This document shows, piece after piece, positions 6,942-47,057 of a DNA stretch of 47,057 nt. The notes beneath the pieces were generated by a model. It made no database searches and was not told where the DNA came from. It saw nothing but the letters and a program-made list of their open reading frames with translations. Source of the DNA: a virus; IMG/VR virus record IMGVR_UViG_3300037584_001070, positions 1 to 47,057 of that record. One strand, given 5' to 3'. The stretch's first letter is position 1; every line of letters starts with the position of its first letter. The translations under genes and the position numbers were made by a program.

Positions 6942-7253
6942 ATGACAGAATCTAATAAAGCAGATGTTGTTAAGTTAAAACGCAACACGTTACTTGCAGA
7001 ATCCGATTGGAAACAGGCAAACGATAGTTCATTAACAGATGCTGAAAAAAATGATTGGTCTGTTTACAGTGATGCTTTGCGTAACCTGATGGTACATGAG
7101 AACTGGCCTAATCTAAAAGATGCTGACTGGCCTGCGGAACCTAAGTCTACAGGTAAACCTAAACGAGCAAGAAATTCTAAAGGGCAACTTATCGGGGATA
7201 ATCCTGACACGCCTGATATAAATGAAGCATGGGAAGGTGGGAAAGCACCATAA
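6942..7253 (+). CDS. Tail-assembly-chaperone-like protein (Phage_tail_APC type, 103 aa)
   Basis: Residues about 14-55 read RNTLLAESDWKQANDSSLTD and continue to WSVYSDALRNL. This is the signature of the Phage_tail_APC family: a short helix pair with SDW and a YR/YS-ALR motif, found at the C-terminus of tail or fibre assembly helpers. The rest is a basic linker (KSTGKPKRARNSKG) and an acidic end. A second copy of the domain ends the protein encoded at 43151-43669. The start has a strong CAGGAGG site. It heads a rightward cassette placed between TerL and TerS. The exact role is unknown. Confidence 0.65.
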   Translation: MTESNKADVVKLKRNTLLAESDWKQANDSSLTDAEKNDWSVYSDALRNLMVHENWPNLKDADWPAEPKSTGKPKRARNSKGQLIGDNPDTPDINEAWEGGKAP

Positions 7254-10628: not shown

Positions 10629-10662
10629 TAACAGAAACTTGTCAGCCAAAAAGGATGAACAG

Positions 10663-11349
10663 ATGACAAATTCAAAAACTTTTACCGTATCCGATACCGC
10701 AATCAACAACGTCTACAACGCGGAGCAAGAGATCGCCTCTCTCAAGGGTGTAAACAAAGAAAACAATGCCGCTGCTAACAGCGCAAAAATGGGAGCTTAT
10801 GGCGAGGTTATCGCTGCCATCGCTCAGGTCAAACTAGTCAAGGGCAACCTACCACGCGCCAACTCTAAGATCCTCAAAGGCTCATTAGTTGAACAGGCAG
10901 GTGTAAAAGAGGCTACTGCCAAACGCTACCTTGAAAATTCTGTAGGTGCTATCGTATTGCTCAAGGATCATTTTGGTGAAATACCAACCCAGTACACACC
11001 TGATGCTATCGTCAAGGATCTTGCAACGCTAGAGATCGACAGCGAGAACAAGCTTGCCAAAGCGGTCAAAGGTGAGAGCGACAAATCAAAAGCGCAGCGC
11101 CTCGCAGAGCAAGTGGTCGGCAAGTTCTCAAACAAAAAAGATGAGAACGGCAAGAGAGTGCAAGGTGATGTATTCAAAGATGGCCTGACTGATGAAGAGC
11201 TTGATGAGTTCGAGAACGCCATGCGTGAGCTTAAAGCTGCTCGTACAGCATACCGCAACTCAGAGGCTGCTAAGGCTGCTGAGGCTGAGGCTGCTGAGGA
11301 AAATGTAGCAGTTGATAGCACAGTTGCTGAGTTCACTGACGCAGCATGA
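10663..11349 (+). CDS. Hypothetical protein, possible DNA-associated (228 aa)
   Basis: Start chosen at the ATG of MTNSKTFTVSDTAINNVYNA with AAGGA upstream; a TTG 24 bases earlier is in frame. The protein is soluble, Ala and Lys-rich, with segments NNAAANSAKMGAYGEVIAAI, EQAGVKEATAKRYLENSVGA and an Ala/Glu-rich C-terminus (AAKAAEAEAAEENVAV). EQAGVKEATAKRYLENS resembles a helix-turn-helix, suggesting DNA binding. Similar proteins of unknown role occur in phage early regions. Its codon use is GC-richer than its small neighbours. Confidence 0.65.
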   Translation: MTNSKTFTVSDTAINNVYNAEQEIASLKGVNKENNAAANSAKMGAYGEVIAAIAQVKLVKGNLPRANSKILKGSLVEQAGVKEATAKRYLENSVGAIVLLKDHFGEIPTQYTPDAIVKDLATLEIDSENKLAKAVKGESDKSKAQRLAEQVVGKFSNKKDENGKRVQGDVFKDGLTDEELDEFENAMRELKAARTAYRNSEAAKAAEAEAAEENVAVDSTVAEFTDAA

Positions 11350-11519: not shown

Positions 11520-11804
11520 ATGAAAAAAAATCAAGATCCTAATGAATATTTTGGAAGTTTCTTTAATGAGGAAATTGGAAAATCGCTCAATGTAGATAGC
11601 ACAAAGCTAGTATACTCAGATCCCCCACTTTCAATAACAGATTATGACATGAAAGAAAAAGTAAGAGAAGCTTTCAACATGGCAAAAAAGGCATTGATAA
11701 ATGACTACATGTACATGGGAACTTGTTCGTTAGATGGGTTTGAATACCTGATGTTCAAGCATATCGAAACCAGAGAATACATAAAGATACCTAAGAGGGG
11801 GTAA
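11520..11804 (+). CDS. Hypothetical protein (94 aa)
   Basis: The protein begins MKKNQDPNEYFGSFFNEEIG and contains a helix (VREAFNMAKKALINDYMY) and a final beta-type segment (GFEYLMFKHIETREYIKIPK). A purine-rich site precedes the start and a palindrome copy lies just upstream. It is the first gene of the unit that also holds the MoxR-like ATPase. I recognise no family. Confidence 0.6.
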   Translation: MKKNQDPNEYFGSFFNEEIGKSLNVDSTKLVYSDPPLSITDYDMKEKVREAFNMAKKALINDYMYMGTCSLDGFEYLMFKHIETREYIKIPKRG

Positions 11805-11809
11805 TCACA

Positions 11810-12061
11810 ATGGAACTAGAAGACACCTACAGTATGAACATAGTTGAGGCATACAAAAAATTCAGTGTGCAAGAACTAAACGACATGCTTGTCAAAGCAA
11901 ATGAGGATTTTGACAATGCTGTAAAAGAAGAAAAAGAGAGCGGTCTACGCTCCAAACGAGACAGAGTAGAGACATGCTCTGTAAAAATCGAATGTCTAAA
12001 TTTTGTAATTGCAATCAGAAAAGCAGACGAACTGCTTTCAGAAATAGAGGGAAAATCCTAA
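11810..12061 (+). CDS. Hypothetical helical protein (83 aa)
   Basis: An acidic, probably coiled-coil protein: VEAYKKFSVQELNDMLVKAN, DFDNAVKEEKESGLRSKRDR, then FVIAIRKADELLSEIEGKS. It has a GAGGGGG site and a TAATG overlap with the ATPase gene, implying coupled translation. It may be a partner of the ATPase, but this rests on linkage only. Confidence 0.6.
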   Translation: MELEDTYSMNIVEAYKKFSVQELNDMLVKANEDFDNAVKEEKESGLRSKRDRVETCSVKIECLNFVIAIRKADELLSEIEGKS

Positions 12062-13074
12062 TGAAACTATCACAAGCAAAGGCCATCGCTAAGGCCGCTA
12101 TTACAGTCAAGACTGACACATTAGATTGTGTGCCGTACCTTGTATCAGGTGCAGGGATTGGCAAGACTTCCATTGTCCATGAGATCGCCAAGGAATTAAG
12201 CATTGGTTGTCAGATATTATCACTGGCTCAGTATGATGCAGGTGAGCTTGCAGGTTGGGTACTACCCAATGCTGATGGCGAGACGATGGATCGCAGATGT
12301 CCTGACTGGATGCCACGAGATGGCAAGGGTATCTTATTCCTTGATGAGCTACCACAAGCACCAGTGTCTAACCAAAACATTGCTGCACAGTTGGTCAATG
12401 AGAGACGCATAGGCAAACATCACCTTCCAGAGGGTTGGCATATCATTGCGGCAGGTAACCGCATGTCTGACCGCGCAGGTACAAACAACATGCCTTCTCA
12501 CCTCAAAGATCGCTTGATGTTCCTAGACATTGAGGCTGACCTAGAAGATACGATTGGCTACTACTACAGCAAGCGTATTGATGAGCGTATTGCTGCATTC
12601 TTGCGCTTCCGTCCTGAGTGGTTGCACAAGTTCAATCGTGATGAGAATGCTTGCCCATCTCCTAGATCATGGGAGCGTGTCGCTACTATCCTCAAATGGT
12701 CTCTTGATCCAGTCAATCAGATTGAAGCTATCGCAGGTCAGGTTGGACGTGCGGCTACGGCTGAGTTCAATGGCTTCCTCAAGGTGTATGATGTTGTACC
12801 TGACATCGATAAGCTGATTGCTAATCCTGCAAGTGCAGATATTCCTGATGCACCTGATGTTCAGTATGCTGTATGCGCTGCATTGTCATCCAAGATGACT
12901 GGCAAGAACGCCAAGAACATCGTGACATATCTAAAGCGGCTACCTCAGCAGGAGTTCGCTGCCTTTGTGATCAAGGATGCAATGAACCGCACTGATGATC
13001 TCAAGCGAGACCTCAAGGCTGATGCATCGATCAGAGAATGGATCATGTCAGTAGGCAAGAACCTTATTCTTTAA
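12061..13074 (+). CDS. MoxR-type AAA+ ATPase (337 aa)
   Basis: A AAA+ ATPase with Walker A LVSGAGIGKTS (G30 to K35), Walker B ILFLDE (residues 91-96), a sensor-1 asparagine in IIAAGNRMSD (N133), and an LKDRLMFLDIE segment (149-157) where the arginine finger is expected. MoxR-family ATPases act as chaperone-like remodelers and are typically encoded beside a von Willebrand factor A (VWA) domain protein, as here. I chose the ATG overlapping the upstream stop codon; an earlier in-frame ATG would run through the previous gene. The client in this phage is unknown. Confidence 0.85.
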   Translation: MKLSQAKAIAKAAITVKTDTLDCVPYLVSGAGIGKTSIVHEIAKELSIGCQILSLAQYDAGELAGWVLPNADGETMDRRCPDWMPRDGKGILFLDELPQAPVSNQNIAAQLVNERRIGKHHLPEGWHIIAAGNRMSDRAGTNNMPSHLKDRLMFLDIEADLEDTIGYYYSKRIDERIAAFLRFRPEWLHKFNRDENACPSPRSWERVATILKWSLDPVNQIEAIAGQVGRAATAEFNGFLKVYDVVPDIDKLIANPASADIPDAPDVQYAVCAALSSKMTGKNAKNIVTYLKRLPQQEFAAFVIKDAMNRTDDLKRDLKADASIREWIMSVGKNLIL

Positions 13075-13082
13075 TCACAGTA

Positions 13083-13112
13083 AAGCAGGCGTACACGTCA
13101 ATATGCCTGCTT
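13083..13112. other. Long-stem hairpin between the ATPase and VWA genes
   Basis: AAGCAGGC (13083-13090) pairs perfectly with GCCTGCTT (13105-13112) around a 14-base loop, about nine bases after the ATPase stop codon. No T-run follows, so it may attenuate transcription or protect mRNA rather than terminate. Confidence 0.5.
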
Positions 13113-13127
13113 ACCATTTCAGCTTTT

Positions 13128-13141
13128 AGTTCTATTGAACT
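13128..13141. promoter_or_regulatory. Palindrome AGTTCTATTGAACT upstream of the VWA gene
   Basis: Perfect 14-bp inverted repeat apart from the two central bases, followed by TTTTT. It ends 16 bases before the start codon and abuts the AGGAG site. Same layout as at 11486, 16007, 36484 and 41944. Confidence 0.6.
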
Positions 13142-13157
13142 TTTTTAGGAGAAAATT

Positions 13158-14285
13158 ATGGACGCACAAATGAAAGTGTCTCGCGCTGTTACGCGCCTAG
13201 TTGTCAAGCATCCCTTCTTTGGGTCAATGTGCCTATCAATCAACGTCAAGTCAGAGGATGACATCCCGACTATGTGTACTGATGGCAAGGCTATCTTATG
13301 GTCACCATCATTCGTTGATACAATGGATCAAGAAGAGACCGTAGGTGTCATGGCTCATGAGGTTTTGCACATTGTATTCAAGCATCACCTCAGACGTGGT
13401 GTGCGTGACCCTGAGCTTTGGAATATTGCGACTGACTTTGCAATCAATCAAGTGCTTGTGGACAATGGCTTTACTCTCCCAGAGGGTGGGCTGATTGATC
13501 CAGAGTACAAGGGTCTCAGTGCAGAAGCTATCTTTGATCGACTACCTGATGATGCCAAGAAAAAGTATGCTCAAGGCGCTGCTATGGGTGAGGTCAAGGA
13601 TGCCAAGAAGGATGATGGCGGTGACATGTCAGAGGCTGAGGTCAAGCAGATGGAAGCAGACATTGATACCAAGGTAATGATGGCTGCATCTGGGGCTAAG
13701 GCAATTGGTAAGCTACCCTCTGCTATCAAGTCTTTGATTGAGGAGATGGAGCGCAGTCAAGTTGACTGGCGTGACGTGATGCGTAGGTTTGTTGGTGGTG
13801 ATCAGCCAGATGACTACAGCTTTCGCAAGCCTCAGAAAAAGATGTATCACATGACTGGTATCATCTCGCCGTCTATCGAAAAGATTGGTGCAGGTGATGT
13901 GGTTGTCGGCATCGATACAAGTGGGTCTGTATCTAAGCGAGAGCTAAAGTTCTTCCTTGGTGAGATCAATGCTATCAGTGAAGACATCAAGCCACGATCA
14001 ATCACGGTGATAACTTGTGATGCTCAGATACAAACGGTCAGACGTTACGAGCAAGGTGAGGAGATCGATAAGATTGAGATCAATGGGCGTGGTGGTACGA
14101 GAGTGAAGCCAGTGTTCGACTACATTGAAGAGCACCAGTTGCCAGTAGACAACATGGTCTACCTCAGTGATCTGGAGATCTGGGATTACCCAGAGAACCC
14201 ACCACACTACCCAACACTGTGGGTCTCGTCATATCTAAGGTCTAAGGAAGCACCTTGGGGAGACACCACCTACCTGACAACGTAG
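13158..14285 (+). CDS. Metallopeptidase-like/VWA-domain protein, partner of the MoxR ATPase (375 aa)
   Basis: The N-terminal part has a zinc-peptidase motif HEVLH (residues 67-71) with a further His pair (H76, H77) and WNIATDFAINQVL, as in the DUF2201 metallopeptidase-like domain. The C-terminal part is a VWA-like domain whose metal-binding motif is VVGIDTSGSVS (D253-S257), followed by ITVITCDAQIQ and RGGTRVKPVFDY. This fusion is known beside MoxR ATPases in bacteria. A charged linker (about 145-170) joins the domains. The pair probably remodels or cleaves a protein target; the phage target is unknown. The start has a TTAGGAG site. Confidence 0.8.
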   Translation: MDAQMKVSRAVTRLVVKHPFFGSMCLSINVKSEDDIPTMCTDGKAILWSPSFVDTMDQEETVGVMAHEVLHIVFKHHLRRGVRDPELWNIATDFAINQVLVDNGFTLPEGGLIDPEYKGLSAEAIFDRLPDDAKKKYAQGAAMGEVKDAKKDDGGDMSEAEVKQMEADIDTKVMMAASGAKAIGKLPSAIKSLIEEMERSQVDWRDVMRRFVGGDQPDDYSFRKPQKKMYHMTGIISPSIEKIGAGDVVVGIDTSGSVSKRELKFFLGEINAISEDIKPRSITVITCDAQIQTVRRYEQGEEIDKIEINGRGGTRVKPVFDYIEEHQLPVDNMVYLSDLEIWDYPENPPHYPTLWVSSYLRSKEAPWGDTTYLTT

Positions 14286-15908: not shown

Positions 15909-16096
15909 AGCGTTTCACAACAGCAGAAAAAGAATGGTTAGGTTACAAACGTAAGCTTGCCAATAATAATATGAAGGTGTCGTTATCAAAAGCACCTTGG
16001 GAAAAAAGTTCAATAGAACTAAAAACAGAGAGTGAGAAAAATGGAATACAAGAACAATCTAAAAGTAATAGAACACGCAAGGGAAGAACTAAGTAG
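15905..16096 (+). CDS. Small basic protein (63 aa)
   Basis: Overlaps the previous gene by four bases (ATGA). MKRFTTAEKEWLGYKRKLAN and a Lys/Arg/Ser-rich end (SNRTRKGRTK) make it strongly basic, so nucleic-acid binding is possible. Its last third overlaps the next gene by 56 bases, and it contains a palindrome copy, so its C-terminal end may be a by-product of the overlap. Confidence 0.45.
   Translation: MKRFTTAEKEWLGYKRKLANNNMKVSLSKAPWEKSSIELKTESEKNGIQEQSKSNRTRKGRTK
16007..16020. promoter_or_regulatory. Palindrome AGTTCAATAGAACT before the 250-residue protein
   Basis: A full-match copy preceded by AAAAA and ending 20 bases before the ATG at 16041. It lies inside the end of the preceding small gene, so it would control only the downstream gene if it acts as an operator. 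Confidence 0.55.
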
Positions 16097-16793
16097 GTTC
16101 TTCAAAACGTATGGTTTTTCTGGTGATGAGATCAAAGAGTTTTGTCAAGATGCCAGTTCATACAACTGGAAAAACTTTGATTATGATGGAGCGCCTACAG
16201 TTCTCAAGCTAATGAGCGACAGCATAGGCAGAGACAACATCAGGAATGTGGTTCTATATGCTCATAGTTTTCTAAAGTTGATCAAGGGTCACAGAAGTAA
16301 AGCTAAGTATGTAGAAGATAAAAGCGTTATCAAGAAAGCCATCGAAAGCAATGTTGTTTGGGCAGCAAGTGAACTCAATGAAGCCTTTCCATCTAGGGGT
16401 TGGGAGGTCAGATGTGAAAGAGGCAGTAAACCTTACGTTGAAGAACAAACAGGTAGATACGGCAGCAACTTCAATGTCGATGTACCTCTTGGTTGGGGTA
16501 AGACTGTATACGCAGAGGGTATTGCCACTGTCAAAGCAGGTGATGGCGAAAGATTTATCATGAATGCCTATAAGAAAAACCTTGGCAGACTAGTCAAGGA
16601 TGGTGTCGTTGCTTACGAATGTGATGTTCTTAAAGTTTACCGTGATAATGCTACCATAGAAAAAGGTTGGGTATTCAAGTACGAAACGTATGACGATACT
16701 ATACTTGCTACACATCAAGAGTTCTCTCGTGCAGAGAGCTTGCTTAAAAGAAGGATCAAGGATACCGTTGTGAAGGAACTTGTGGACTTCTAA
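16041..16793 (+). CDS. Hypothetical protein (250 aa)
   Basis: The ATG follows an AGAGAGTGAG site; a GTG nine bases earlier is also in frame. Beginning MEYKNNLKVIEHAREELSRF, the protein has an N-terminal helical region (1-110) and a C-terminal mixed region containing GWEVRCERGSKPYVEEQTGR, DVPLGWGKTVYAEGIAT and GWVFKYETYDDTI. GWGKT is not a Walker motif in this context. No family recognised. A GC-rich hairpin follows, so it ends a unit. Confidence 0.6.
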   Translation: MEYKNNLKVIEHAREELSRFFKTYGFSGDEIKEFCQDASSYNWKNFDYDGAPTVLKLMSDSIGRDNIRNVVLYAHSFLKLIKGHRSKAKYVEDKSVIKKAIESNVVWAASELNEAFPSRGWEVRCERGSKPYVEEQTGRYGSNFNVDVPLGWGKTVYAEGIATVKAGDGERFIMNAYKKNLGRLVKDGVVAYECDVLKVYRDNATIEKGWVFKYETYDDTILATHQEFSRAESLLKRRIKDTVVKELVDF

Positions 16794-23258: not shown

Positions 23259-23260
23259 AC
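23249..23260. repeat. Perfect palindrome GTTCAATTGAAC at the convergent junction
   Basis: A 12-bp perfect palindrome covering the stop codon of the rightward nuclease gene and reaching the end of the leftward giant gene (stop at 23260-23262). Same motif as the dispersed repeat. Whether it has any termination role is unclear. Confidence 0.6.
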
Positions 23261-26200
23261 TATCTGTAATCTTTCATGAACTCATTACCACGAGAGTAAA
23301 GCATTTGCTTCTTTTCATCTAACCTATCTAAGATCAATTGTTTTTGTGCATCTGGCATATTTACATTATCACGAACAGCATTTTGTTGGCGCGATATTTT
23401 TTTGATAGCATTGTTTATTGCTTTAATACGAGGGATTAATCTAAACTCTTCTGAGTATTTTTCTCTAGCTCTTATAAGCCTGTCTCTATCCCCTGCATCT
23501 TGTGCTGCTTTTATCTCTGCTGCAACGCGAAGAACCTTATCTCTTTTTTCCACAAAGATACCAATGTTTTCTCTGTCAGAAACAGTGCCGTATAACTTCC
23601 TTGCAAAGGGAATTTCTCTTGCTAGGTCTTGAGAAAATCCTTCAGCGTAAGCTGTGGTAGGAACGTCCACAAATGTTCTCTTTGTAAATCTCCCAATACC
23701 ACCAGTTAAAAACTCAAACCAGTAATCCATAATCTCTGGATTCCAATCCACAAAACCAGAGATCTCGCTCGTACCACCAGTTAAAGAGTTTAAGTTTTCT
23801 GCAATCCATTTAGACGATGGGCTGACATTATTAAAATATCTTTGACTATCAGGAGAGTCATCACCAGGGTACGCCTGTTTATATACTGGCACACCTGCGT
23901 AATTTTCATTCCTCATGATCTCTACAAAAGGATCGAATGCAGTTGGCACAGCAAAGTTAAATAGATTTTCTGTTCCACCTATTGGATTAAGAGCATCCAC
24001 CGCAGTCATCACCATGCTAAGACCGCCCTCTGATGCAGAGTATTCACCTCTCATAGTTCTACCCAATGATCGACCTGCATTGACCGCTGCGTTTAATCCA
24101 TAGGGCATGGGTATTGCTAGGTAATCTCTACCTGCACCAAGATCACCTAGTGGTAAAACTAAATTATGTTCTAGAATATAATCTGGTATTTTATCATATA
24201 TTAATATGCCATCTTCATCTTCTTCTGAAACAAGAGAGTTAATAAAGTCTTGAAATAAACCTGCGCCTACAAGACCAACCCATATGGCTTGTACTTTTTT
24301 AGATCTTAGTAGCGCATTGAAAAGTGCAAATGAACCTTGGATAGACGCGTTGTAAAACAGATACCAAGAGTTCATGAATGTCTTTGCTTCACCACCCTTA
24401 CCAAAGTTTACCGTTACATTCCTAGCCGCTTGAGCTGCTCGCGCCCCTGAGAAACCTTGCTTCTTTAAATTGTGATATGTGGTAACACGAATAGCGTTCT
24501 CGATTACAGTGTTGTAATTCTCTAATAAAGTTAGGATTGAACCTGCACCCTTACCGACAAAACTATTCTTTACCTTGTTGAACTTACCTCGAACACCATC
24601 CTCTTGGATGTCTCCTAATATTTTATTAATGCTTTCAACTTGATCAGCGATACTGGTCATGGGGTTTGCAGAGTTCTGACCACCGTCACGAACAAATTCT
24701 CTGTAGATCTGAGACCACTCACTGCTCTCATCTCCGTTCACAATGGCACGTTTAATTCCTACGAATGCTTTCCTGTAGTCCTTAGACATAGCTCCAACCA
24801 TGCCTTTAGCATCAAACTGTTGGACATTCACACCTGCTGTTTGCAAGTCACGAACCAAGTTAGTTATCATAAACTCTGGGTTGTAAGATGTGTTTATGTT
24901 TGACAGGTATCTATTTAACTTACCCATCGCACGATTGATTGTGTCAAGACTACTAGATCCAGTGCCGTCTGAACCTTTCAGTGATCTACCTAATCTTTTA
25001 TCTGCTAACTCAACATAAACATCTTTGCCGTTTACCTTAGCCACAAATATATTATCATTATCTGCTGCAAATCTATCTACAATTTCAACTACATTTCCAG
25101 AAGAATCCAACGCTCTTGTTGTCGGCATCTTATCAAGGATACGTCCATACCCACGAGTCTCGTTTGGTTTGCTTTCCAGTAATCCAATGAAAGCTTGACC
25201 CACTTTGTTTCTCTCACCTCTGATAACTGCGTTCTGATTTTGATTTAACACAGTTGCAAGTATATCGGTTGCATAATCATATCTACCAAGAGCACGTCTA
25301 TCTTCTCTGCCCCTAACACCAAAAGGACTTCCGCTTTTAGGTCTGGTAAAACTCATATCATTATCTGTTGGGTCTTCCTTGCCACGCAGAGGAACATAGT
25401 TATCAAAGTTTTTATCTTGCCGTAAGTCTTCGGCAATTAACCCGTAGTCTGCGCGGGAATCGTTCGTGTTTTTTATTATGTCTCTTATTCCAGATTGCAT
25501 TCTTTGTAATCTTGCAGCGTTATCTGGATCAATGGTTGCAACCCAAGCTAGTATAGCATCAGCCTCTGCATCAGACATTCCAGAACCTGAGTCATTACTT
25601 GGGTCTCTTGTTCTTATAAACGCATTTCTTTCTTTAGCGTGAGTGGCATAAATAACTGCGTCACCTACAGCCTGTTTCTTACTTCCATAAGATGAGAGTG
25701 CTTGCTTTACAAATCCGTTTCCATTTTCAGATGCCGCATCAGATAAACCCTCAAGCCTATCAATACTATCTTGGGATATACTTAATTCTTTTATGGCATC
25801 AACTGGAGCGGCATATAGATCTTCTCTTGCCCTTAACTCTTCGGGAACTTTACCATGATAAAGCTCCTCTGCTAAATAAGCATCAAAAGCATCTGGTATT
25901 TCTACATTATTTTGCTGAAGTTCTTGATACATACGACCCACAGAAATAAAATCATCTTGAAATTTATTTATAATTTTATCAGCTATGTCTTGGGACTTAG
26001 TTTGTGGAATAAAATATCCTAATTTTCTTGCTATGAAGTCAGAAGCTTTGGCATAGCTTAGGTCATATTTTTTTTGCTCTATCTGAACAGGAAGAGAACT
26101 AAGCATTGTAGATTTTCTGTATGGATGTGTATTAGCTACAGTCTTACGAGCTTTCTTTTCCATTATAGGGAAGAATGTTTTTACATAATAAAAATTTGGT

Positions 26201-29200
26201 TGAAGAGTTGATACTTCTTTGCCTCGTGTTGAAACATTGCTGCCTCTTTCCAACACAAGCCTAAGAGGTGGACTTCCGTTAGTAATATTCTTGCGCCACT
26301 CAAGGACAAGCTTGTTCTGATTTTGATATGAGATTACATCTTCGCCATCTTGAAAGTCTTGTCTTCTCCATCTATCCATTAAATCTCTTATCGCTTCTTC
26401 AACCCTGCCGTACTTAGAGTTCATGAAAAGATCTTTGTCATGGCTTCTTTGCTGTATATGAACTAAACCGTGACCATCTTGGATGCCGTTAGCGTGATTG
26501 TTTTGAAGCCCTGTTGGGAGAACAACAAGACGTTCTGTTCCGCCCTCAAGCACCTTACCGTAAACAGGACTAGGGGCTTGACCTCTATCAGATTTTTTTA
26601 CTGGAACTCTTTCGAGCATATAGCTTTTTCTATAATCCTCAGCAGTTGGCTCAACCTCTGGATCAAAGACAGCAAATCTAGAGGGGTATCTTTGTGGTGG
26701 CAATTGAGGATTTATTTCTACTGAGTTAAGCTCTGCTTTTTCTTCTGGTGTTATCTGTCCTTGAATTGATTGAGAGTAGTCTTCTAATTCTAGCTCTCTT
26801 GGCGAGAAGAAGTTTCGCTCTCCTGTTGTTTCTTGTATTGTATCAATCTCTTTGCCAATTTCTGAATCTCTTTCGAGTTCAAGTTTGACAGTACTGAGCC
26901 GTCCTCGCTCTGCCTTGGGGAGTGTGGCTTCGATTTTGCCATCTGAAATACCTTTCTTTTTTAGGATAGCTATAGCACCGTCAGCGTAATCGTTGTCATC
27001 ACCACGACCTTTACGGACACCACCTGCTGCAAAAATTCTTTTCTCTGCGTACCACATCAATGCTTGAAAATCTGCGTTAGAAATATCCACACCAAGCTGA
27101 TTACTCTGTTTTAATATTTCACGAGCACGATTAGCGGTTGCTCTCATAGCCGCTCTGTCTGCCGCACTTCTTGGATCTTCTTGTAGCGACTCGACTAATT
27201 TGTTTGCTAAGTTTTTACCTGCTTTTGCTAGGGGAGTTGACTCAGGTCTAGCATCTTGAGCTATCTTCTTTACTGTCGCGGCATCTTTGCCAGTGATAGT
27301 AGCCCCAGAAATATTAAAATCATACTGATCTGACAAATCATTTAGCTTGTCGTTGTATGCTTTGTTGTAAAAACTTTTATCCCATGTGCTCATTATCTGT
27401 GGAGCTAAAAGTTCAATATCACTTTTTTCTAAAGTAGTTACTCCAAGATCATCGAGAACAGTAGCCAATAGATCTTGATCCATTTCAGATAACTGCTCTG
27501 GATTTGATACTAAATTCCAAAGAGTGTCCTTGTTTTTCTGAACTAACTCTTCGTTGTACTGAACTATTGGTTTGCCAGTAATTCTATTTGCAAATCGCAT
27601 CCACCAACGATCCATAGTTAAAGGATCAAAGTTCCCGCGCAAGTTCTGGTAAAAACCGTTGCCTATCTTAGGCCCGATCACATAAGCAACACCAACCATT
27701 TGATCTGCTTGTTCTTTGCCATCAATTTTAAATGGTAGATCTTTTACTCTATCAACACCAAAGACTTCGGTCATCAGAGATGCAAGTTCTCCCTTTGGTA
27801 ATTGAGTAGTAAGCAATTCATTAATTTGATTTGAGTCATATCCTAAATTAGTGAGAGCGTTCCAGAACTCCCACGCTTTGATCATGGATTGACCCTGTTT
27901 GCCAGAGGAAGACAATGGGAACTTTCCGTCTTGGCTGTTCTTCCATGCATCATACTGACGAGCAGCAAGTAGATAGTTATCTATAACTGATAAGCCGTTT
28001 GATGTGACGGCAGTAGCATAATCAAATGCATGTTCTGATGCAGGGCTATAAAGAGGGTTGTCTGTACCATCAGGACGTGTGGGTGAAACCTCTGGGTAAA
28101 CTGGGAACAAGGTTTGTTTTGCAAGCTTGAGCGTTGTGTCATACCAACCAAGGGCATCACTGCTTGATAGTAAAGCTGCCTCCGCTTCAGCAGCCATGAT
28201 ACGAGCCACGGATTCACGATCTTCTGCTGAGTTTATGAGGTCATATTCAGGAGCGCCTCGAAGTTCGAGTAGTTTATTAGCAAAGCTGACTAATGTTTCT
28301 GAGCCTTCTTTGCTTTTAAACTTAGGCTCTCCAGTATTAGGATCTAAATAGTCCAAGATACTTGCGGCACGTTGTTCTAGTGAGAGGGGAAGAGTTAAAC
28401 GAGACTGTCTAAATCCTTCTACTCCTCCAGTAAGCTGTTCTTTTTCGAGGGCGTTACGTTTATTCCTTGCTTCTTCAAAGCGGCTACCAACCTCTGCAAG
28501 GTTTCTTTGGTATCCGATTGCGGCGTCACTTCTGTAAGCACCACTTTGCTTGAGTCCTTCGATTCCTTCATTTGTTCTAATCTCCTCAAAGTTATTCAAA
28601 TTAAATATAGCTAGTTGATCCGCTGCTTCAGCTATATACAAAGCCTCTTCTGCGGTAGGAACAATCAAAGTATTATCTAAAAAGTATTGCTTTGACTCTC
28701 CATCGAACCACCCACCAAGATACACTGGTCTATTTATTGCCCTAGATATATCCTTATTGTCCTCTATATAACCTAATAGTACTTCCTCTGGCAAGGTCTC
28801 TCCGACAATTATTTCTGCCTGTTTCAATGGTGCAACAACAAACCCACCTGACACAGGTTCTAACGTGATTGGATCTACGGTAAATCCATCTGGATTGTCT
28901 TTAATAAATCCCTGCAAAGATGGCACTGAGGATGAGCGAGATAGGCGTGATGCTTTGGCAGGTGTCTCTACTGCATCAGCATCCTTGTCTACTTTAATTG
29001 ACTCCTCTGGTAGAGGTGTTCTTTCTCTGCTTCCAATCTCACCTAGATTTATATCATCGAATATGGTGGCGGCGTCTGTGAATCCGTTCTCTAGGTTTCC
29101 ACCAATGATAGATTTAAAGAAGTTCTTGATTTTATCTAGGATAGTTCTTGGCTTACCAGTAATCTTCAAACGACCTGCATTGTAATCACGAAACATTTCC

Positions 29201-31410
29201 GCCACAGCTTCTTCGATCTGTATCTCTGGAGACTGATCGGCGTACATCTTCTTTGCTCTATCTAGATAGGTATACTTTCTTAGCTCTGGCCTACCCTTCT
29301 TGCTTTTTACATACTTTGCTTTTGCTGCTGCGCTTGTAAGAGTGTTCCACTCCTTGTCTTTTATGACGTTCATATTCTTTAGGGCGTGTGTTGTCTCGTG
29401 ATCAAGAACCTCACCAACTCTTTCAAAGAGCTGCTTCTCAGATAGCTTAGGATCATAGACACCCATAGACAGACTTATCATTCTATTGGTAGGGTTGTAC
29501 TCAAAGCTTCCCTCAATACCCTCACCTGCTTCGTCTCTTACTAACTGCTCACCACTAAGCTTAACATCTTTCAGTCCATACTTGTTCAGCCTCTTGCGAA
29601 TATCCTTAAATACTTTCTCTTGTTTTTGTGTAAGAGCAGGAGTGTATACAGGTTTGTTCGATTGAACTTTTTCTTGAACAGAGTCAGCTATCCTTCTTGC
29701 TTTGGCTGCTGCTATTTTTGTTTCAAGCTTCTGAGATTTGTTAAACTCAGGTGTTACTTTCGGAACATATGGAAGGTTGCCAAGCCTGTTAAGTGCTGAC
29801 TGAGATTCGTTGATAACAGTTGAGTACTGTTTGTTTCTTTCGTTAAGCCTATCAATCTCATACTGAATAGCTTTCTCACTGGTTCTTCTGCCCTGTAGAT
29901 CTCTGCCGTACTGACGCACAGAATCAAGATCAAGCTTCAGGTCTTTAATAATATTGTTGTTCTTTTCTGTAGCTTCACTAGCTATATCGATCTGTCTTCT
30001 GTAAGAAACATCTGGAGTTTTAAGCTGAGGCTGTATGTTGGTTGTTGGCGTAAACCTTCGACCAACCCTATTAACATATCCACGACCTACCAGTTCATTC
30101 ATTACATCTGTTACTTGAGGCACAGTAGTTTTACCTACGTCTTTGCTAACCTGCTGTTGAATAGAAGATAGGTTTAAAGTTTTTTCTCTTGCAGTATCAG
30201 ATTTAACTTGCTGTAGAACCCTATCGTACTGAGCTTTGGTGAATGTCTTGTTCTTAAACTCTTCATCTGTTGTGACCTCTGCAACCGCAAGAGGATCTAC
30301 AGGTCTTTGTTCTTTTACAGGAGGCTGCTCCGCAGCTATTGCTTGATCGTTTTGTTTTTCTGCCTCAGTTGTAAGCTCTTGTGATATTACGCTTGCGTAA
30401 CCAAGTCTCTCTCTTGTGTCAGTCGTAAGTTCTTTTAGATCAGCTATAAGCTGCTCGTCTTTTTCTGCCTCTTTCTTTAACCGCTCCTGTTCTTTTTTAT
30501 CTTTTTCTTTCTGTGCTTCTCTTTCTCTTATAGATTTACTGGTCAATCTTTTGTTTGTGGCAATATCTATTGGAGCACCAACCACACCTGCTGCACCTGC
30601 ACCAAGCAAACCTTCACCCAAAGCCTCTTTAAAACTTAGATCAAGACCCTTGTCAGTTAGTGCTGTCTCACCTGTCTGTTGAATTAGACTTTGCAGTGAC
30701 TCTGTGCCGCCCTCTAAAATTGTTCTCTTTAAAAAGCCAGACATACCTGGGGCTATGGCATTTAATGCACCGCTTGCTGTTGAGCTAGTGATTGAACCAA
30801 GCCAATCCTCTGAGTTAGGAACTTCTCTTCCATTGTTTCTGGCTCTTTCATTTGCAATCGGGCCAAGCAACTGAACTGCTTCAAAAAGTGCAGGGCCAGT
30901 AAGTCCACCTGCTATAGCACCAGGAGCACCTGCTACTAAGCCACCGCCAACAACACCCACACCTCTTGCCGCCATAGATCCTACGAATTGACCTGCTTGC
31001 TCTGCTATGGCTCTTGGGGCATAACGAAAATCAAATCCAAATCCATCTGGATTTAAAAACTTACCTGCTGCACTTTCATAGTTTTCTGGCCCCTCAACTA
31101 AGTCACTAAAGAAATCACCAGTACCTTCATATCCAAGAGACCTTGCTGTCTCTGCTATGTTTTCAAGAGGTTGATCAAGGGCAAACTTAAAAGCACTAGA
31201 TACAGATCTGTCAGGCTCAGGGGCTTCTTCTCTTGCGAGAGACCTAATGCCACCACCATATTGTTGTTCAAAGGCTTTCCTAAAAGGGGCTTCTTGTTGC
31301 TCTAATATTTGAGATATACGATTTGTTTCTTCTGGTGTGGGTGTACTACCTGCTATTGTAAAGCTATATGGTTCACCAGAAAACTGACCTAGTTGTTGAA
31401 TAACACCCAA
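23260..31410 (-). CDS. Giant polyvalent internal virion protein (2716 aa)
   Basis: The largest gene of the window. Visible parts: hydrophobic Ala/Gly-rich membrane-like region (about 150-190 and 270-285); a zinc-peptidase motif DHETTHALK (near residue 670); a short LPD-like segment GGWFDGESKQY; a BECR-like nuclease region from GHGLVHIQQRSHDKDL to YYVKTFFPI (about 1640-1750); and a C-terminal LPD38-like domain (about 2130-2580) with LNRYLSNINTSYNPEFMITN and a second hydrophobic segment (AIWVGLVGAGLFQDFINSLV). Such proteins are packaged and probably enter the cell with the DNA. Domain names follow recalled family patterns and need a profile search. Confidence 0.75.
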   Translation of the reverse strand: MGVIQQLGQFSGEPYSFTIAGSTPTPEETNRISQILEQQEAPFRKAFEQQYGGGIRSLAREEAPEPDRSVSSAFKFALDQPLENIAETARSLGYEGTGDFFSDLVEGPENYESAAGKFLNPDGFGFDFRYAPRAIAEQAGQFVGSMAARGVGVVGGGLVAGAPGAIAGGLTGPALFEAVQLLGPIANERARNNGREVPNSEDWLGSITSSTASGALNAIAPGMSGFLKRTILEGGTESLQSLIQQTGETALTDKGLDLSFKEALGEGLLGAGAAGVVGAPIDIATNKRLTSKSIREREAQKEKDKKEQERLKKEAEKDEQLIADLKELTTDTRERLGYASVISQELTTEAEKQNDQAIAAEQPPVKEQRPVDPLAVAEVTTDEEFKNKTFTKAQYDRVLQQVKSDTAREKTLNLSSIQQQVSKDVGKTTVPQVTDVMNELVGRGYVNRVGRRFTPTTNIQPQLKTPDVSYRRQIDIASEATEKNNNIIKDLKLDLDSVRQYGRDLQGRRTSEKAIQYEIDRLNERNKQYSTVINESQSALNRLGNLPYVPKVTPEFNKSQKLETKIAAAKARRIADSVQEKVQSNKPVYTPALTQKQEKVFKDIRKRLNKYGLKDVKLSGEQLVRDEAGEGIEGSFEYNPTNRMISLSMGVYDPKLSEKQLFERVGEVLDHETTHALKNMNVIKDKEWNTLTSAAAKAKYVKSKKGRPELRKYTYLDRAKKMYADQSPEIQIEEAVAEMFRDYNAGRLKITGKPRTILDKIKNFFKSIIGGNLENGFTDAATIFDDINLGEIGSRERTPLPEESIKVDKDADAVETPAKASRLSRSSSVPSLQGFIKDNPDGFTVDPITLEPVSGGFVVAPLKQAEIIVGETLPEEVLLGYIEDNKDISRAINRPVYLGGWFDGESKQYFLDNTLIVPTAEEALYIAEAADQLAIFNLNNFEEIRTNEGIEGLKQSGAYRSDAAIGYQRNLAEVGSRFEEARNKRNALEKEQLTGGVEGFRQSRLTLPLSLEQRAASILDYLDPNTGEPKFKSKEGSETLVSFANKLLELRGAPEYDLINSAEDRESVARIMAAEAEAALLSSSDALGWYDTTLKLAKQTLFPVYPEVSPTRPDGTDNPLYSPASEHAFDYATAVTSNGLSVIDNYLLAARQYDAWKNSQDGKFPLSSSGKQGQSMIKAWEFWNALTNLGYDSNQINELLTTQLPKGELASLMTEVFGVDRVKDLPFKIDGKEQADQMVGVAYVIGPKIGNGFYQNLRGNFDPLTMDRWWMRFANRITGKPIVQYNEELVQKNKDTLWNLVSNPEQLSEMDQDLLATVLDDLGVTTLEKSDIELLAPQIMSTWDKSFYNKAYNDKLNDLSDQYDFNISGATITGKDAATVKKIAQDARPESTPLAKAGKNLANKLVESLQEDPRSAADRAAMRATANRAREILKQSNQLGVDISNADFQALMWYAEKRIFAAGGVRKGRGDDNDYADGAIAILKKKGISDGKIEATLPKAERGRLSTVKLELERDSEIGKEIDTIQETTGERNFFSPRELELEDYSQSIQGQITPEEKAELNSVEINPQLPPQRYPSRFAVFDPEVEPTAEDYRKSYMLERVPVKKSDRGQAPSPVYGKVLEGGTERLVVLPTGLQNNHANGIQDGHGLVHIQQRSHDKDLFMNSKYGRVEEAIRDLMDRWRRQDFQDGEDVISYQNQNKLVLEWRKNITNGSPPLRLVLERGSNVSTRGKEVSTLQPNFYYVKTFFPIMEKKARKTVANTHPYRKSTMLSSLPVQIEQKKYDLSYAKASDFIARKLGYFIPQTKSQDIADKIINKFQDDFISVGRMYQELQQNNVEIPDAFDAYLAEELYHGKVPEELRAREDLYAAPVDAIKELSISQDSIDRLEGLSDAASENGNGFVKQALSSYGSKKQAVGDAVIYATHAKERNAFIRTRDPSNDSGSGMSDAEADAILAWVATIDPDNAARLQRMQSGIRDIIKNTNDSRADYGLIAEDLRQDKNFDNYVPLRGKEDPTDNDMSFTRPKSGSPFGVRGREDRRALGRYDYATDILATVLNQNQNAVIRGERNKVGQAFIGLLESKPNETRGYGRILDKMPTTRALDSSGNVVEIVDRFAADNDNIFVAKVNGKDVYVELADKRLGRSLKGSDGTGSSSLDTINRAMGKLNRYLSNINTSYNPEFMITNLVRDLQTAGVNVQQFDAKGMVGAMSKDYRKAFVGIKRAIVNGDESSEWSQIYREFVRDGGQNSANPMTSIADQVESINKILGDIQEDGVRGKFNKVKNSFVGKGAGSILTLLENYNTVIENAIRVTTYHNLKKQGFSGARAAQAARNVTVNFGKGGEAKTFMNSWYLFYNASIQGSFALFNALLRSKKVQAIWVGLVGAGLFQDFINSLVSEEDEDGILIYDKIPDYILEHNLVLPLGDLGAGRDYLAIPMPYGLNAAVNAGRSLGRTMRGEYSASEGGLSMVMTAVDALNPIGGTENLFNFAVPTAFDPFVEIMRNENYAGVPVYKQAYPGDDSPDSQRYFNNVSPSSKWIAENLNSLTGGTSEISGFVDWNPEIMDYWFEFLTGGIGRFTKRTFVDVPTTAYAEGFSQDLAREIPFARKLYGTVSDRENIGIFVEKRDKVLRVAAEIKAAQDAGDRDRLIRAREKYSEEFRLIPRIKAINNAIKKISRQQNAVRDNVNMPDAQKQLILDRLDEKKQMLYSRGNEFMKDYR

Positions 31411-42310: not shown

Positions 42311-43151
42311 TTTTCTTATCCTCTAGCTGTGGAGTGTTAGTCAGAGATGTTCTGTCCATGATATCAAAACCACGGCTGTTTGCAAAGTCTCCAGGGCAAT
42401 CTGCCCATTTTTCTGCACAAGCCTCTAACCACTGAACCGTGTGGTGATGCTCTGGTGCCTTACCTTGTTTGATGATTTCGTTTTCCCACTGCAAATAAGA
42501 AAAGACTTCAGCCTGTGCCTGCGCTGCATTGATCCCTAGATCAAACACATAAATAAGATTACCTTCATCTATTTGACCATTACGACTTCTAGCTGCATTC
42601 AAGGCTTGTTTCATGCAGGTCATAATGTGGTACTTAACTTCTTCGCGCTCATAGTCTTCTTCGGTAAGCTCGTCCTTGCCGATCTTCTTCATCAGGTTGT
42701 CATACTGATTAGTAAAGAAGTTTAGCTTACGAACCGCAGCTTCTACATATCCACGAGAGCTTGCCGCCTGTGCCTGCTTTTCGTTAATCTTAATCTCAAG
42801 CATCTCACGTTCAAGATCATCATCTTCTTCTAGGAGCTTACGCTCTAGCTTCTTGAGCTTTACTTCTTCCTTCTTCATCTTGAAGTAGCCCTCTTGCAAA
42901 GCTGCTTTTGTCTTTTCTATCTCAGCAAGACTGTGCTTTACGGACCGTATAGGTGTGATCGCAGTTACATCTAATGTAACACTCATCATCTGTGAATGAG
43001 ACTTATAGAAGTTGCTAGATGCCTGTGCGATTGCAGGAGCTTTTTCTGCAATGTTTGCCAACATAGATTTGTATTCAGGCTTCGCTTGTGGAAGCTGAAT
43101 CTTAATGTCAGGCGTTGTTAACGCGATTTCATTTGTGGTATCTTTTGGCAT
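42273..43151 (-). CDS. Coiled-coil structural protein (292 aa)
   Basis: I start at the ATG overlapping the upstream stop (TAATG), not at an in-frame ATG 39 bases earlier. The middle is a long charged coiled coil (KTKAALQEGYFKMKKEEVK-like; LKKLERKLLEEDDDLERE), followed by CMKQALNAARSRNGQIDEGN and a Trp-rich C-terminus. Fibre-helper or tail-assembly role is possible. Confidence 0.6.
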   Translation of the reverse strand: MPKDTTNEIALTTPDIKIQLPQAKPEYKSMLANIAEKAPAIAQASSNFYKSHSQMMSVTLDVTAITPIRSVKHSLAEIEKTKAALQEGYFKMKKEEVKLKKLERKLLEEDDDLEREMLEIKINEKQAQAASSRGYVEAAVRKLNFFTNQYDNLMKKIGKDELTEEDYEREEVKYHIMTCMKQALNAARSRNGQIDEGNLIYVFDLGINAAQAQAEVFSYLQWENEIIKQGKAPEHHHTVQWLEACAEKWADCPGDFANSRGFDIMDRTSLTNTPQLEDKKNGTQSSKVQTRK

Positions 43152-43669
43152 TATGATGGTTTCGTTGGCATGGTGTGAGTATGAGGCCATCCTGATGCAG
43201 TTGGCAAGTCTCTAAGTGCTTTGCGATATGTAACCCACTCAGCTTTTTTTTCTGTGCTCAAAGCGGTGTCAGCCATCTGTGTCCAATCAGATTCAGAAAG
43301 TAACGACGTTCGAGTAGACCTTTGGGCTTCAGCCGCATCAGCGTCAATACGAGCGCGGTACGCTGTGGTTTGTGCGTCAACCGTTTGCACCTTACCATCA
43401 TCGTCTGTGTATTCTGTAAACACTGGCCCAACAGAATTGACTGTCATCCAATTGCCTTCAGAATCTTTTGCTACACCAGACCTAAAACTATATTCATATG
43501 GCGCTGTTGTGTCGGCTTGAGCACTTTCCATAACTGGATCTGCACCAAGACCATCTAGGCGTTCCGCCGTAAGCGTTGGCTCTAGAACAGGTCGAGTTTT
43601 CTTGTGCATCGTGCGAAAAGTTATTTCCGTTACCACCTCTTCCGTGTCTCTTATTCTTATTAGTCCCAT
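43151..43669 (-). CDS. Tail-assembly-chaperone-like protein (172 aa)
   Basis: The C-terminal 60 residues contain RTSLLSESDWTQMADTALST and WVTYRKALRDLP, the Phage_tail_APC domain. The N-terminal part is beta-type (IRIRDTEEVVTEITFRTMHK, then YSFRSGVAKDSEGNWMTV). It lies downstream of the DUF7483 protein, where fibre-assembly helpers are usually found. See the related gene at 6942. Confidence 0.75.
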   Translation of the reverse strand: MGLIRIRDTEEVVTEITFRTMHKKTRPVLEPTLTAERLDGLGADPVMESAQADTTAPYEYSFRSGVAKDSEGNWMTVNSVGPVFTEYTDDDGKVQTVDAQTTAYRARIDADAAEAQRSTRTSLLSESDWTQMADTALSTEKKAEWVTYRKALRDLPTASGWPHTHTMPTKPS

Positions 43670-43681
43670 GACTAAACTCCT

Positions 43682-45766
43682 TTATGTTGCAATAGCGTAG
43701 AAGATGTAAGTTGAACCGTTGGTATTAAGACCCCCTAAAGCTGTTGTGACAGTAAAACCTGCGTTATATGGGTCGATAGCATCATAAGATGTAAACTCAG
43801 CTTGCTGATCGTTTAAGTATAGGAAAGGATCATTACCCGCCACAATTCCACGTTTACTATCAAATGTAAACCAACTATCTCCAGATGCACTTGACCTCTT
43901 AATCAGTATAAATCGGGCTCCTGACGTAAACCCACAATCTACATTTACAGCACTGCTTGAACCTGTGTAACTTCCAACTTTACTTACCCCTGCTACTGTA
44001 GCGAACAAGTAAGCTATGTAGGTTGTATTATTAGCGTTTGTGCCTCCGTTTGTGCCTACAGTAAATACAGAGCTAGAAGGGGCGGTATCATTCCATATAC
44101 TAGCATTGTCAATTTCGTCATCTGTTCTGTTTAGTTGTAAATAATAATCTTCTGGAGAAGAACCACCGTTCATCCCTTTATGATATACATGCCAACTATC
44201 ACTCGTGCTTCTTACCTTTACCCACATCATCTCAGGCACTACACCAAGGTTATGGCTAACAGTTCTATTGCTTCCCGACCCCGTGTAACAAACAACGTCA
44301 AAATAGCCTCTGGCTCTTTTCCACATCCATCCATAATAAGCAGTATTACTTCCAGTTGAATTATAAACGCCATTCATAAAGTCATACTTCAAATTGCTAT
44401 CAGATGCTTCACCACTTGTAGCATTAGTTTGCATATATTTTGGGCCTGTTAAACGGCTTGAAATGTACCCTGGTGATCCTCCTGTAGACTTTTCAAAATA
44501 CATATCCACTGGAAAAGTTGATCTATAGGCAGGTGCTTTACTGTCTCCTGCTTCACCATTTGTAGATATAGCAAACACCTGACTCGCATCAGTTGGTGCA
44601 GCTTGAGGTCTGCGTATTGCCATGTAGATGTAGTTAGCAGAGGCTGATAGTTGTCCATCAAACTCAAATCCTGTAGATGTAGGAAACCCTCTAGTAGCTG
44701 CAAATCCACTTTCTGCATTGTCTGTATCAGCATATAAAGGGTTCCAAAATCTATCGTTGTAACCCCTCATAATATCCATTAATGTCCAATTAGACGTTCC
44801 ATCATAACGCTTTATCATCAACCATTGCGGCTCAAATCCAAGAGTAACGCTTGCATCACCACTGCTATCCGTAGAAAAACTCCCACACTTGATAATATCT
44901 TCATCTTGATCTGGGCCGAACTCACCGTCATTGTTGTTGTGTGAGAAAAAATAAGCTACATATGTATCTCCAGATTTATTTGCATCTACGCCTGTTCCTG
45001 TTGCTGATACTTGTAGCCGATAATCGCCTGACGATTCTACATATGCTCGTCCATTAGTTTCGTTTGATGATTGAGATTGATTAGTATTATTTAAATTCAA
45101 ATTATACGCTGAACTATCCATTAAGGGATACCACACTAACCAATTAGAACTTGCACTGGTATTTTTTACAAAGACCATTCCAGGCCTCTGCCCTAAATTA
45201 TGCGAGACTTTTTTTGAAAAATCACTAGAACCATCCCCCGTATACGTCACAACGTCAAAAAATTTAGTCTGCTTCCGAAATGTAAAACTGACGTACTCAG
45301 TTCCATAACTCGCATTAGTTCCATTTTCAAAAAGGTTTGCTCCTAGTGTAAAACCATTAGAGTTAAAAGATTGTAACCCATCAGACTGAGTAGATGCTCC
45401 GTTAGTACTGGCAGTGCCTGCAAAAATACGACCTCCATTTGGGCCTGTTCCACGTGCTGTATCATAAATAGTGTGGAACGCACTAGAGCTTCCATCTCTA
45501 GATTTTAACCAGACCAAACCACCTTCTGTAAGGTCAATGCCGTTATTAATTGCCTGGTTAGCACCAGTTCCGTCATATAAGAATGTTGAAAAAACATTTT
45601 CCGCATTAGTAATAACATTCCCAACCGTAGGCCATTTTTCTTTCTTCTGTAGCTCTACAACTTCGTCTATTGACCACACCCCTGGAGCAGAAGTTGTCTG
45701 TAGGTTATTAGCAGGCTCAACAGCCGTGGCTCTTATTATATTCGCCTCGTATCGTTTATCTGACAT
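43682..45766 (-). CDS. DUF7483-type tail fibre or spike protein (694 aa)
   Basis: Beta-rich, Gly/Ser/Asn-rich protein with two or more repeats of a jelly-roll-like unit whose landmarks are FDVVTYTGDGS, VSHNLGQRPGMVFVKN and later FDVVCYTGSGS, VSHNLGVVPEMMWVKV. This is the DUF7483 pattern found in marine phage fibres and probably binds a host receptor. It starts TAATG-coupled to the preceding kelch-like fibre gene. Confidence 0.75.
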   Translation of the reverse strand: MSDKRYEANIIRATAVEPANNLQTTSAPGVWSIDEVVELQKKEKWPTVGNVITNAENVFSTFLYDGTGANQAINNGIDLTEGGLVWLKSRDGSSSAFHTIYDTARGTGPNGGRIFAGTASTNGASTQSDGLQSFNSNGFTLGANLFENGTNASYGTEYVSFTFRKQTKFFDVVTYTGDGSSDFSKKVSHNLGQRPGMVFVKNTSASSNWLVWYPLMDSSAYNLNLNNTNQSQSSNETNGRAYVESSGDYRLQVSATGTGVDANKSGDTYVAYFFSHNNNDGEFGPDQDEDIIKCGSFSTDSSGDASVTLGFEPQWLMIKRYDGTSNWTLMDIMRGYNDRFWNPLYADTDNAESGFAATRGFPTSTGFEFDGQLSASANYIYMAIRRPQAAPTDASQVFAISTNGEAGDSKAPAYRSTFPVDMYFEKSTGGSPGYISSRLTGPKYMQTNATSGEASDSNLKYDFMNGVYNSTGSNTAYYGWMWKRARGYFDVVCYTGSGSNRTVSHNLGVVPEMMWVKVRSTSDSWHVYHKGMNGGSSPEDYYLQLNRTDDEIDNASIWNDTAPSSSVFTVGTNGGTNANNTTYIAYLFATVAGVSKVGSYTGSSSAVNVDCGFTSGARFILIKRSSASGDSWFTFDSKRGIVAGNDPFLYLNDQQAEFTSYDAIDPYNAGFTVTTALGGLNTNGSTYIFYAIAT

Positions 45767-46722
45767 TATGCTGCTCCTGACGCTGTTGCTGATCCAACTG
45801 CCCCAAGACCTTTTCTAGCTGTAGTTAAATCGCCAAAATCAGTTGCATTACCAGTTGAAGCTATAGTTACATAGTCTATTACGTTTGAGGTAGCACCGCT
45901 TCTCTCACCGCCACCAAATACTGCTCTTGTAGCATTTGAGGTAGCACCCTCTCTACTACTGATGCTAGTTAAATCACCAAAATCAGTTGCATTACCAGTT
46001 GAGCTTATAGTAACATAATCTATTATATCTCTTTGATTCGTACCAACTGCATTGTCATTATAGCCACCACCAAATAAAGCCCTTGTTGCAGATGCACACC
46101 CTGCTAGAAAACTTCTAGCTAAAGTAAGATTACCAAAATCACTAGCATTGCCTGTAGAACCTATGGTGATATAATCTATAGTATCATAAAATGTTGCTCC
46201 TCCACCCCATCCCCCTGCAAAAAGCCCTCTTGTTGCAGATGATGCGCCTGTTATTCTAGCACGAGCCTGAGATAAGTTACCAAAATCTGTTCCGTTTCCA
46301 AGAGAAGCCATTGTAACATATTCTATTATGTTATCACTTGTAGCCCCACCCCCTGCAAACACACCTCTTGTATTGTTTCCACAACCACCACTATATTGAA
46401 AAGCAGTAGCAGTATCTCCAAAATCTGCTGCATTTCCTGTAGAAGCAAACTCTACATAATCAATAGTTGTTGTACCGCCAGTTCCACCATAGTTAGTAAT
46501 CCCTCTTGTAGAATTACCATTACCTTGACTATCAGCTTTTGCTGCTGTTGGATCGCCAAAATCGGTAGCGTTGCCTGTTGATGATATAGTAATAAAATCT
46601 AGAACAGCACTAGCTGTAGCTGAAGTAAACAAACCTAGATCACCACTTGGAAATGGAACAGGCCAAGCACTAGCATTCTGCATCTGCGTTGTGAGCGACC
46701 ATACACCTTGATAATTTGGCAT
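45766..46722 (-). CDS. Tandem-repeat (kelch-like) fibre protein (318 aa)
   Basis: Six imperfect repeats of about 50 residues, each with a core like IDYVTIxSTGNATDFGDLT followed by AxxxxxGxSxATRGLFxGGG. The layout suggests a beta-propeller of kelch type, a surface for receptor binding. It overlaps the neighbouring partial gene with the same repeats (TAATG). Confidence 0.7.
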   Translation of the reverse strand: MPNYQGVWSLTTQMQNASAWPVPFPSGDLGLFTSATASAVLDFITISSTGNATDFGDPTAAKADSQGNGNSTRGITNYGGTGGTTTIDYVEFASTGNAADFGDTATAFQYSGGCGNNTRGVFAGGGATSDNIIEYVTMASLGNGTDFGNLSQARARITGASSATRGLFAGGWGGGATFYDTIDYITIGSTGNASDFGNLTLARSFLAGCASATRALFGGGYNDNAVGTNQRDIIDYVTISSTGNATDFGDLTSISSREGATSNATRAVFGGGERSGATSNVIDYVTIASTGNATDFGDLTTARKGLGAVGSATASGAA

Positions 46723-47057
46723 TATGCAATCCCTCCGTGACCGTTTGAATTTGCCATAAGAGCATCACTTGTTGTTCCAGTTAAATCAGCAAAATCTGTA
46801 GCGTTGCCTGTTGAGGCTATTGTTACTGATACAATGCCAACAGTGCTATCAATAAAAGTACCAACAGTGTGTGAAGACGCTGCACGAACATTAAGCCCTA
46901 AGACTGAGGATATTAAATCTCCAAAATCTATAGCGTTTCCAGTAGATGCAATAGTGACGTAATCAATTGAGTTTGTGTTATCAGACCCTGTAAATCCACC
47001 TCCAGTAAGGCCTCTTGTGGGTGACGAACATCCTCCTTGCCCACGCCTATTTAAGGT
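46722..47057 (-). CDS. Partial tandem-repeat fibre protein (3' end only)
   Basis: The frame enters at the right edge and stops at 46722. The 111 visible residues contain a full repeat core (IDYVTIASTGNAIDFGDL) and a shorter one (VTIASTGNATDFADLT), then ALMANSNGHGGIA. It is therefore a sister of the preceding fibre gene. Its N-terminus lies outside the window. Confidence 0.65.
   Translation of the reverse strand, partial: TLNRRGQGGCSSPTRGLTGGGFTGSDNTNSIDYVTIASTGNAIDFGDLISSVLGLNVRAASSHTVGTFIDSTVGIVSVTIASTGNATDFADLTGTTSDALMANSNGHGGIA

Follow-up and report, generated by a model that had tools for sequence, protein, structure and literature searches.

N4-like phages have few core genes, and gene pairs of the N4 gp24/gp25 type belong to them; jumbo phages carry such pairs too. 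In N4 itself both genes are middle transcripts, the pair is core across N4-like phages, and the virion protein list of phage RPP1 does not contain it (PMC4193335); the LIT1 virion protein list likewise lacks a pair of this type (PMC3715699). Iyer et al. 2021 (PMC7824862) described a MoxR-vWA/metallopeptidase chaperone pair in group 2.2 jumbo phages, and the known MoxR-VWA pairs listed in PMC7159879 speak for remodelling in which the VWA protein is the partner. In the literature searched, no paper was found that tests the function of N4 gp24/gp25-type pairs, and none on MoxR with DUF2201, on DUF3150, or on phage CobS/CobT with MoxR.

Here, such a pair was analysed in the window, the whole 47,057-nucleotide stretch of viral DNA (IMG/VR record IMGVR_UViG_3300037584_001070), for which no near-identical cultured phage was found. 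The MoxR ATPase/DUF2201 pair is a genuine, intact and selected two-gene system. It belongs to a known kind, the N4 gp24/gp25 type, and is no stand-alone oddity; the kind now also includes a marine phage lineage whose packaging genes are different. Two details are new: a DUF3150 gene, usually lying between the two genes in bacteria and some phages but absent from the window, and a recurrent operator-like palindrome with one copy just 5' of the VWA gene.

The locus and its two proteins

The positions of all features of the locus are given in Table 1. Both genes were present where the initial annotation had placed them (12061-13074 and 13158-14285; ORFs checked). It had also described a small upstream gene as coupled to the ATPase gene, which held: the ATG at 12061 of the ATPase gene, whose stop is at 13074, lies within a TAATG shared with the TAA of the 83-aa ORF, so the overlap is real. 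A small upstream ORF was start-codon-coupled in 13 of 27 relatives' loci with a placeable start. Identity of the 83-aa protein was 89-98% in close relatives and 33-38% where the VWA protein was still at ~73%; since its conservation is confined to close relatives, it does not count as a core component.

Table 1. Positions in the window of the pair, its neighbours and the associated nucleotide elements.
Feature	Position	Strand	Basis
MoxR-type AAA+ ATPase, 337 aa (N4 gp24-like, phrog_1297)	12061..13074	+	profiles, alignment, model
DUF2201 protein, 375 aa (N4 gp25-like, phrog_1314): predicted N-terminal zincin-like metallopeptidase domain (HEVLHxxxxH), C-terminal VWA, complete MIDAS	13158..14285	+	
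83-aa protein gene overlapping ATPase start, fast-diverging, accessory	11810..12061	+	
RNA hairpin in the gap between ATPase and VWA genes, 3' of the ATPase stop codon	13080..13114	+	
14-bp operator-like palindrome AGTTCTATTGAACT, just 5' of the VWA start codon	13128..13141	.	
p253, ~250-aa protein of unknown family, candidate extra component	16041..16793	+	
r236, 236-aa protein of unknown family	10639..11349	+	
Palindrome AGTKCWATWGMACT, exact copies	8536, 9155, 11486, 13128, 16007, 36484, 41944		
Palindrome AGTKCWATWGMACT, one-mismatch copies	8186, 20945, 23248, 27410, 33376		

In the PHROGs profile search the ATPase matched phrog_1297 over nearly its full length (1.5e-75, residues 2-333), and it scored above the cut-off of Pfam AAA (1.1e-4; 23.1 bits against 21.2). 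Pfam AAA_5 stayed below its cut-off (16.9 against 22 bits). By sequence the protein matched midasin, and it was grouped with the NorQ/CbbQ/midasin (MoxR) type of AAA+ proteins on this ground and on that of its top structural matches. For the AlphaFold model (mean pLDDT 87) these were NorQ (Z 14.4; 3.9 A over 218 residues), whose structure was solved together with the NorD VWA domain, and CbbQ (Z 13.8), with ClpA/Hsp104 domains less than one Z unit away and the C-terminal part of the model barely covered by the search. The model has a helix-2 insert, a beta-hairpin (strands 67-69 and 76-78) between helix 60-64 and the Walker B strand 90-95, as expected for the helix-2-insert clade. Gly32, Gly34, Lys35, Asp95 and Glu96 were invariant in the alignment, and together with N133, R151, P201 and R202 they make up the near-invariant residues across about two dozen diverged members. 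The earlier description of a 'Walker-complete MoxR-type ATPase' was thus right about the catalytic residues, but Walker A reads SGAGIGKT, with Ser29 replacing the first glycine, and the MoxR-type Pfam model, AAA_3, stayed below its cut-off (16.5 against 27 bits); 'MoxR-type' is used here for a likeness without formal Pfam membership.

The partner scored above the curated cut-offs of Pfam DUF2201_N (6.9e-48; 164 bits against 23.2) and DUF2201 (1.9e-25; 89.8 bits against 26.4) and matched phrog_1314 over nearly its full length (2.3e-104, residues 2-373). The families proposed for both proteins are supported, and NCBIfam gave no match for the pair or its neighbours. The HEVLH and the VWA metal motif DTSGS noticed at first reading were located at residues 67-71 and 253-257. 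Near-invariant positions were H67, E68, H71, H76, R79, N89, D93 and N97, among them a further histidine five residues past the HExxH, and D253, S255, S257, T314 and D338, which form a complete MIDAS. In both proteins the catalytic residues were near-invariant down to ~22% identity among the two dozen or so diverged members, and these residues show which point mutants to make. The C-terminal part of the partner's AlphaFold model (mean pLDDT 84) matched VWA domains; these filled the match list, and the metallopeptidase half was left without an established fold match. By sequence, the HExxH region matched M48 peptidases only, and weakly (1e-3), and the N-terminal domain is a predicted zincin-like metallopeptidase. 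The PHROGs label 'HNH endonuclease' for phrog_1314 was rejected, the protein being DUF2201. The same label is carried by the DUF2201 metallopeptidase-VWA proteins of many phage records and looks like an annotation error.

NorQ and CbbQ are the closest solved structures to the ATPase model, as they would be if the pair were to insert metal into, or mature, one phage enzyme in the manner of NorQ/NorD or CbbQ/CbbO. We consider this very unlikely: no common client metalloenzyme was seen beside the pair in the phages looked at, and NorD, ViaA and CbbO have no known equivalent of the partner's metallopeptidase domain.

Conservation, pairing and neighbouring elements

The pair is under strong purifying selection, with pairwise dN/dS of 0.05-0.18. 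Among 50,697 phage records, tblastn matched the VWA protein in 748 and the ATPase in 793; N4-like, rV5-like and jumbo phages, cyanophage S-TIM5 and Thermus phage phiFa are included. Outside phages, matches to the VWA protein were found in 116 plasmid records and, in a pattern-limited genome scan, at 55 bacterial genome loci. On Synechocystis pSYSA the VWA gene is paired with an ATPase gene, and on other plasmids ATP-binding/AAA genes lie upstream of it.

Pairing and order of the two genes are fixed. Wherever a viral locus had enough flank (3.5 kb or more upstream of the VWA gene; 76 loci), the ATPase gene was present, and the pairing that had been claimed is upheld by this count. In 105 viral pairs the strand was always shared and the ATPase gene lay upstream in 104 and downstream in one, at distances from overlap to >1 kb. 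The ATPase gene was present at 48 of the 55 cellular loci; six of the other seven were short of upstream flank, and the seventh (L125) has a DUF3150 gene and no detected ATPase gene. The distance matrices of the phage ATPase and VWA proteins were correlated at 0.93 (largest permuted value 0.37), a value that also reflects shared descent.

The 14-bp palindrome AGTKCWATWGMACT occurs in the window in 7 exact and 5 one-mismatch copies against 0.27 expected, and its copies precede both non-structural and structural genes. Those 5' of the VWA gene, of p253 and of a 94-aa gene at 11520 stand ~17-21 nt before the start codons. Of 48 non-redundant viral loci, 19 have it, nine of them within the gap of the pair when position is tested strictly; it is in none of the cellular loci or cultured phages checked. 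The palindrome is likely a phage regulator or promoter site of operator-like form; variants with imperfectly pairing arms point to a putative protein-binding site rather than an RNA stem. The 86-nt gap between the two genes folds as RNA at -24 kcal/mol (z -4.6 for the whole gap), with the hairpin standing 5' of the palindrome and no U-tract directly after its stem.

Among the 48 non-redundant viral relatives, r236 lay upstream of the pair in 39 and p253, whose start codon is closely preceded by the same palindrome as that of the VWA gene, lay downstream in 31. At 26 loci (21 cellular and 5 viral) a protein of one family was present, usually between the ATPase and VWA genes. Pfam identified it as DUF3150, above the cut-off for L084 and just below it for L115, and a DUF3150 protein between or beside the two genes was seen at L071, L073-L076, L084-L099 and others. 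MoxR-DUF2201 gene sets of bacteria and of some phages probably have DUF3150 as a third component. A protein matching Nmad5 (tested on L060) lies in the gap of the pair in phages L059-L061. The window has neither a DUF3150 nor an Nmad5-like gene between the pair, and the DUF3150 profile matched nowhere in it; r236 and p253 were rejected as diverged DUF3150 proteins (hhalign probability <1%).

Possible third subunits, such as DUF3150 in bacteria, could reveal the target of the pair. The pair may be the constant motor of a modular machine whose target is set by an exchangeable third subunit. Bacteria and some phages would use DUF3150 for this, other phages an Nmad5-like protein, and the lineage of the window p253 and/or r236; in this lineage, a phage regulator at the palindrome would control the VWA gene and p253 separately from the ATPase gene. 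This extended model is speculative, and we hold it to be rather unlikely as a whole.

Genome context and proposed function

The pair sits in a + strand block, with genes for a primase-helicase, a RusA-like resolvase, an exonuclease and a Sak annealing protein further downstream, and most structural genes lie on the - strand elsewhere in the window. Gene annotation supports a place among non-structural genes, outside the structural block; its 'early' location is a reading of gene order in a 47-kb linear fragment. Tail fibre assembly families were matched in two separate genes, at 6942-7253 (+) and 43151-43669 (-). Eight imperfect 60-nt repeats, spaced ~132-233 nt apart, lie near the window end at 45822-46969, partly inside an ORF at 45766-46722 (-).

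The terminase of the window was closest to those of 023Pt_psg01 (59%) and pelagiphage HTVC027P (58%); with DSL-LC04 and HTVC023P these relatives span 52-59% identity, and CRP-902 stands at 36%. Neither gene of the pair was found in any of these five phages (65-96% of each genome searched), so a particle of the window's type can probably be built without it and the pair looks accessory to the packaging module.

The mechanism that we infer comprises ring formation, docking, proteolysis, timing and target. The ATPase would assemble into a ring and use ATP to pull on or remodel a protein; its VWA partner would dock the target, as well as the ring, at the MIDAS metal site; and the partner's N-terminal zincin domain would clip or hold the target. 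The earlier reading as a remodelling pair stands, and we regard ring-and-docking remodelling, with no target specified, as probable. The pair would most likely work inside the infected cell in the early or middle phase, acting on a complex of replication or transcription or on a host complex, and not as a virion part. An intracellular role is favoured by the non-structural location, by the terminase relatives lacking the pair in the parts searched and by the LIT1 and RPP1 virion lists, and the early/middle phase is supported by the middle transcripts of N4 gp24/gp25. For the whole statement, mechanism and intracellular early/middle-phase target together, we judge the chances to be evenly balanced.

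The virion list of phAPEC6 counts against this intracellular explanation. It contains gp265c, of 49.5 kDa (49.52 listed), with 6 peptides (PMC7247149), which we take from its mass and gene order relative to phage Sharanji (orthologue 49.51 kDa) to be the ATPase orthologue, though thymidylate synthase is in the list too (35.51 kDa listed, 35.51 kDa in Sharanji) and nothing listed at the expected place has the mass of the VWA partner (54.06 kDa). The pair might then be a machine of virion assembly or maturation that helps a tail or head protein to fold and processes it by proteolysis, as Iyer et al. 2021 proposed for jumbo phages by analogy to a MoxR-VWA pair reported for Acidianus two-tailed virus (PMC7824862), and in the jumbo-phage genus of phAPEC6 the pair has close by it genes that encode further proteins of that virion list. 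This role is somewhat unlikely, given a pair outside the structural block in the window, its absence from the LIT1 and RPP1 lists and from the searched parts of the terminase-related phages, and its occurrence in bacteria and on plasmids.

The target first suggested, a host defence or transcription protein, is one candidate. Unfolding or cleavage of such a protein, as counter-defence or host takeover, would accord with the location among non-structural genes, the variable accessory neighbours and the metallopeptidase domain (Pfam match). However, PADLOC gave no match for the pair or its neighbours, and bacteria and plasmids also have homologous pairs. Anti-defence genes tend to be patchily distributed. 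The pair, by contrast, is part of the conserved core of N4-like phages (PMC4193335), and we consider such a role distinctly unlikely.

Comparison with described systems

The N4 gp24/gp25 type has the same two families in the same order as the window, with near full-length similarity to the LUZ7 gp24-like (29.6%) and RPP1 gp25-like (24.9%) proteins. The window nevertheless appears to belong to another lineage than the N4-like phages, its terminase being closest to 023Pt_psg01 and pelagiphages, and no match to a giant virion RNA polymerase was found in this fragment. A giant 2716-aa protein at 23260-31410 (-) has a C-terminal LPD38 domain (Pfam 1.4e-36) and otherwise matches only phrogs of unknown function. 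The closest cultured ATPase found was that of Roseobacter phage CRP-7 (gp07/gp15), at 44-46%, with 34% for the VWA protein and a weak p253-like gene 3' of the VWA gene (E 7e-4); in contrast to the window, seven annotated genes separate the CRP-7 pair, and the stretch searched has no r236-like gene.

The pair of group 2.2 jumbo phages has the same domain architecture, whereas the phage of the window is smaller and its pair lies outside the structural block. Bacterial and plasmid MoxR-DUF3150-DUF2201 sets share the ATPase and VWA families with the window, mostly in the same order, but the window is without the DUF3150 gene. NorQ/NorD and CbbQ/CbbO likewise combine a MoxR-type ATPase with a VWA partner; their sequence families differ from those of the window, whose partner has in addition a metallopeptidase domain.
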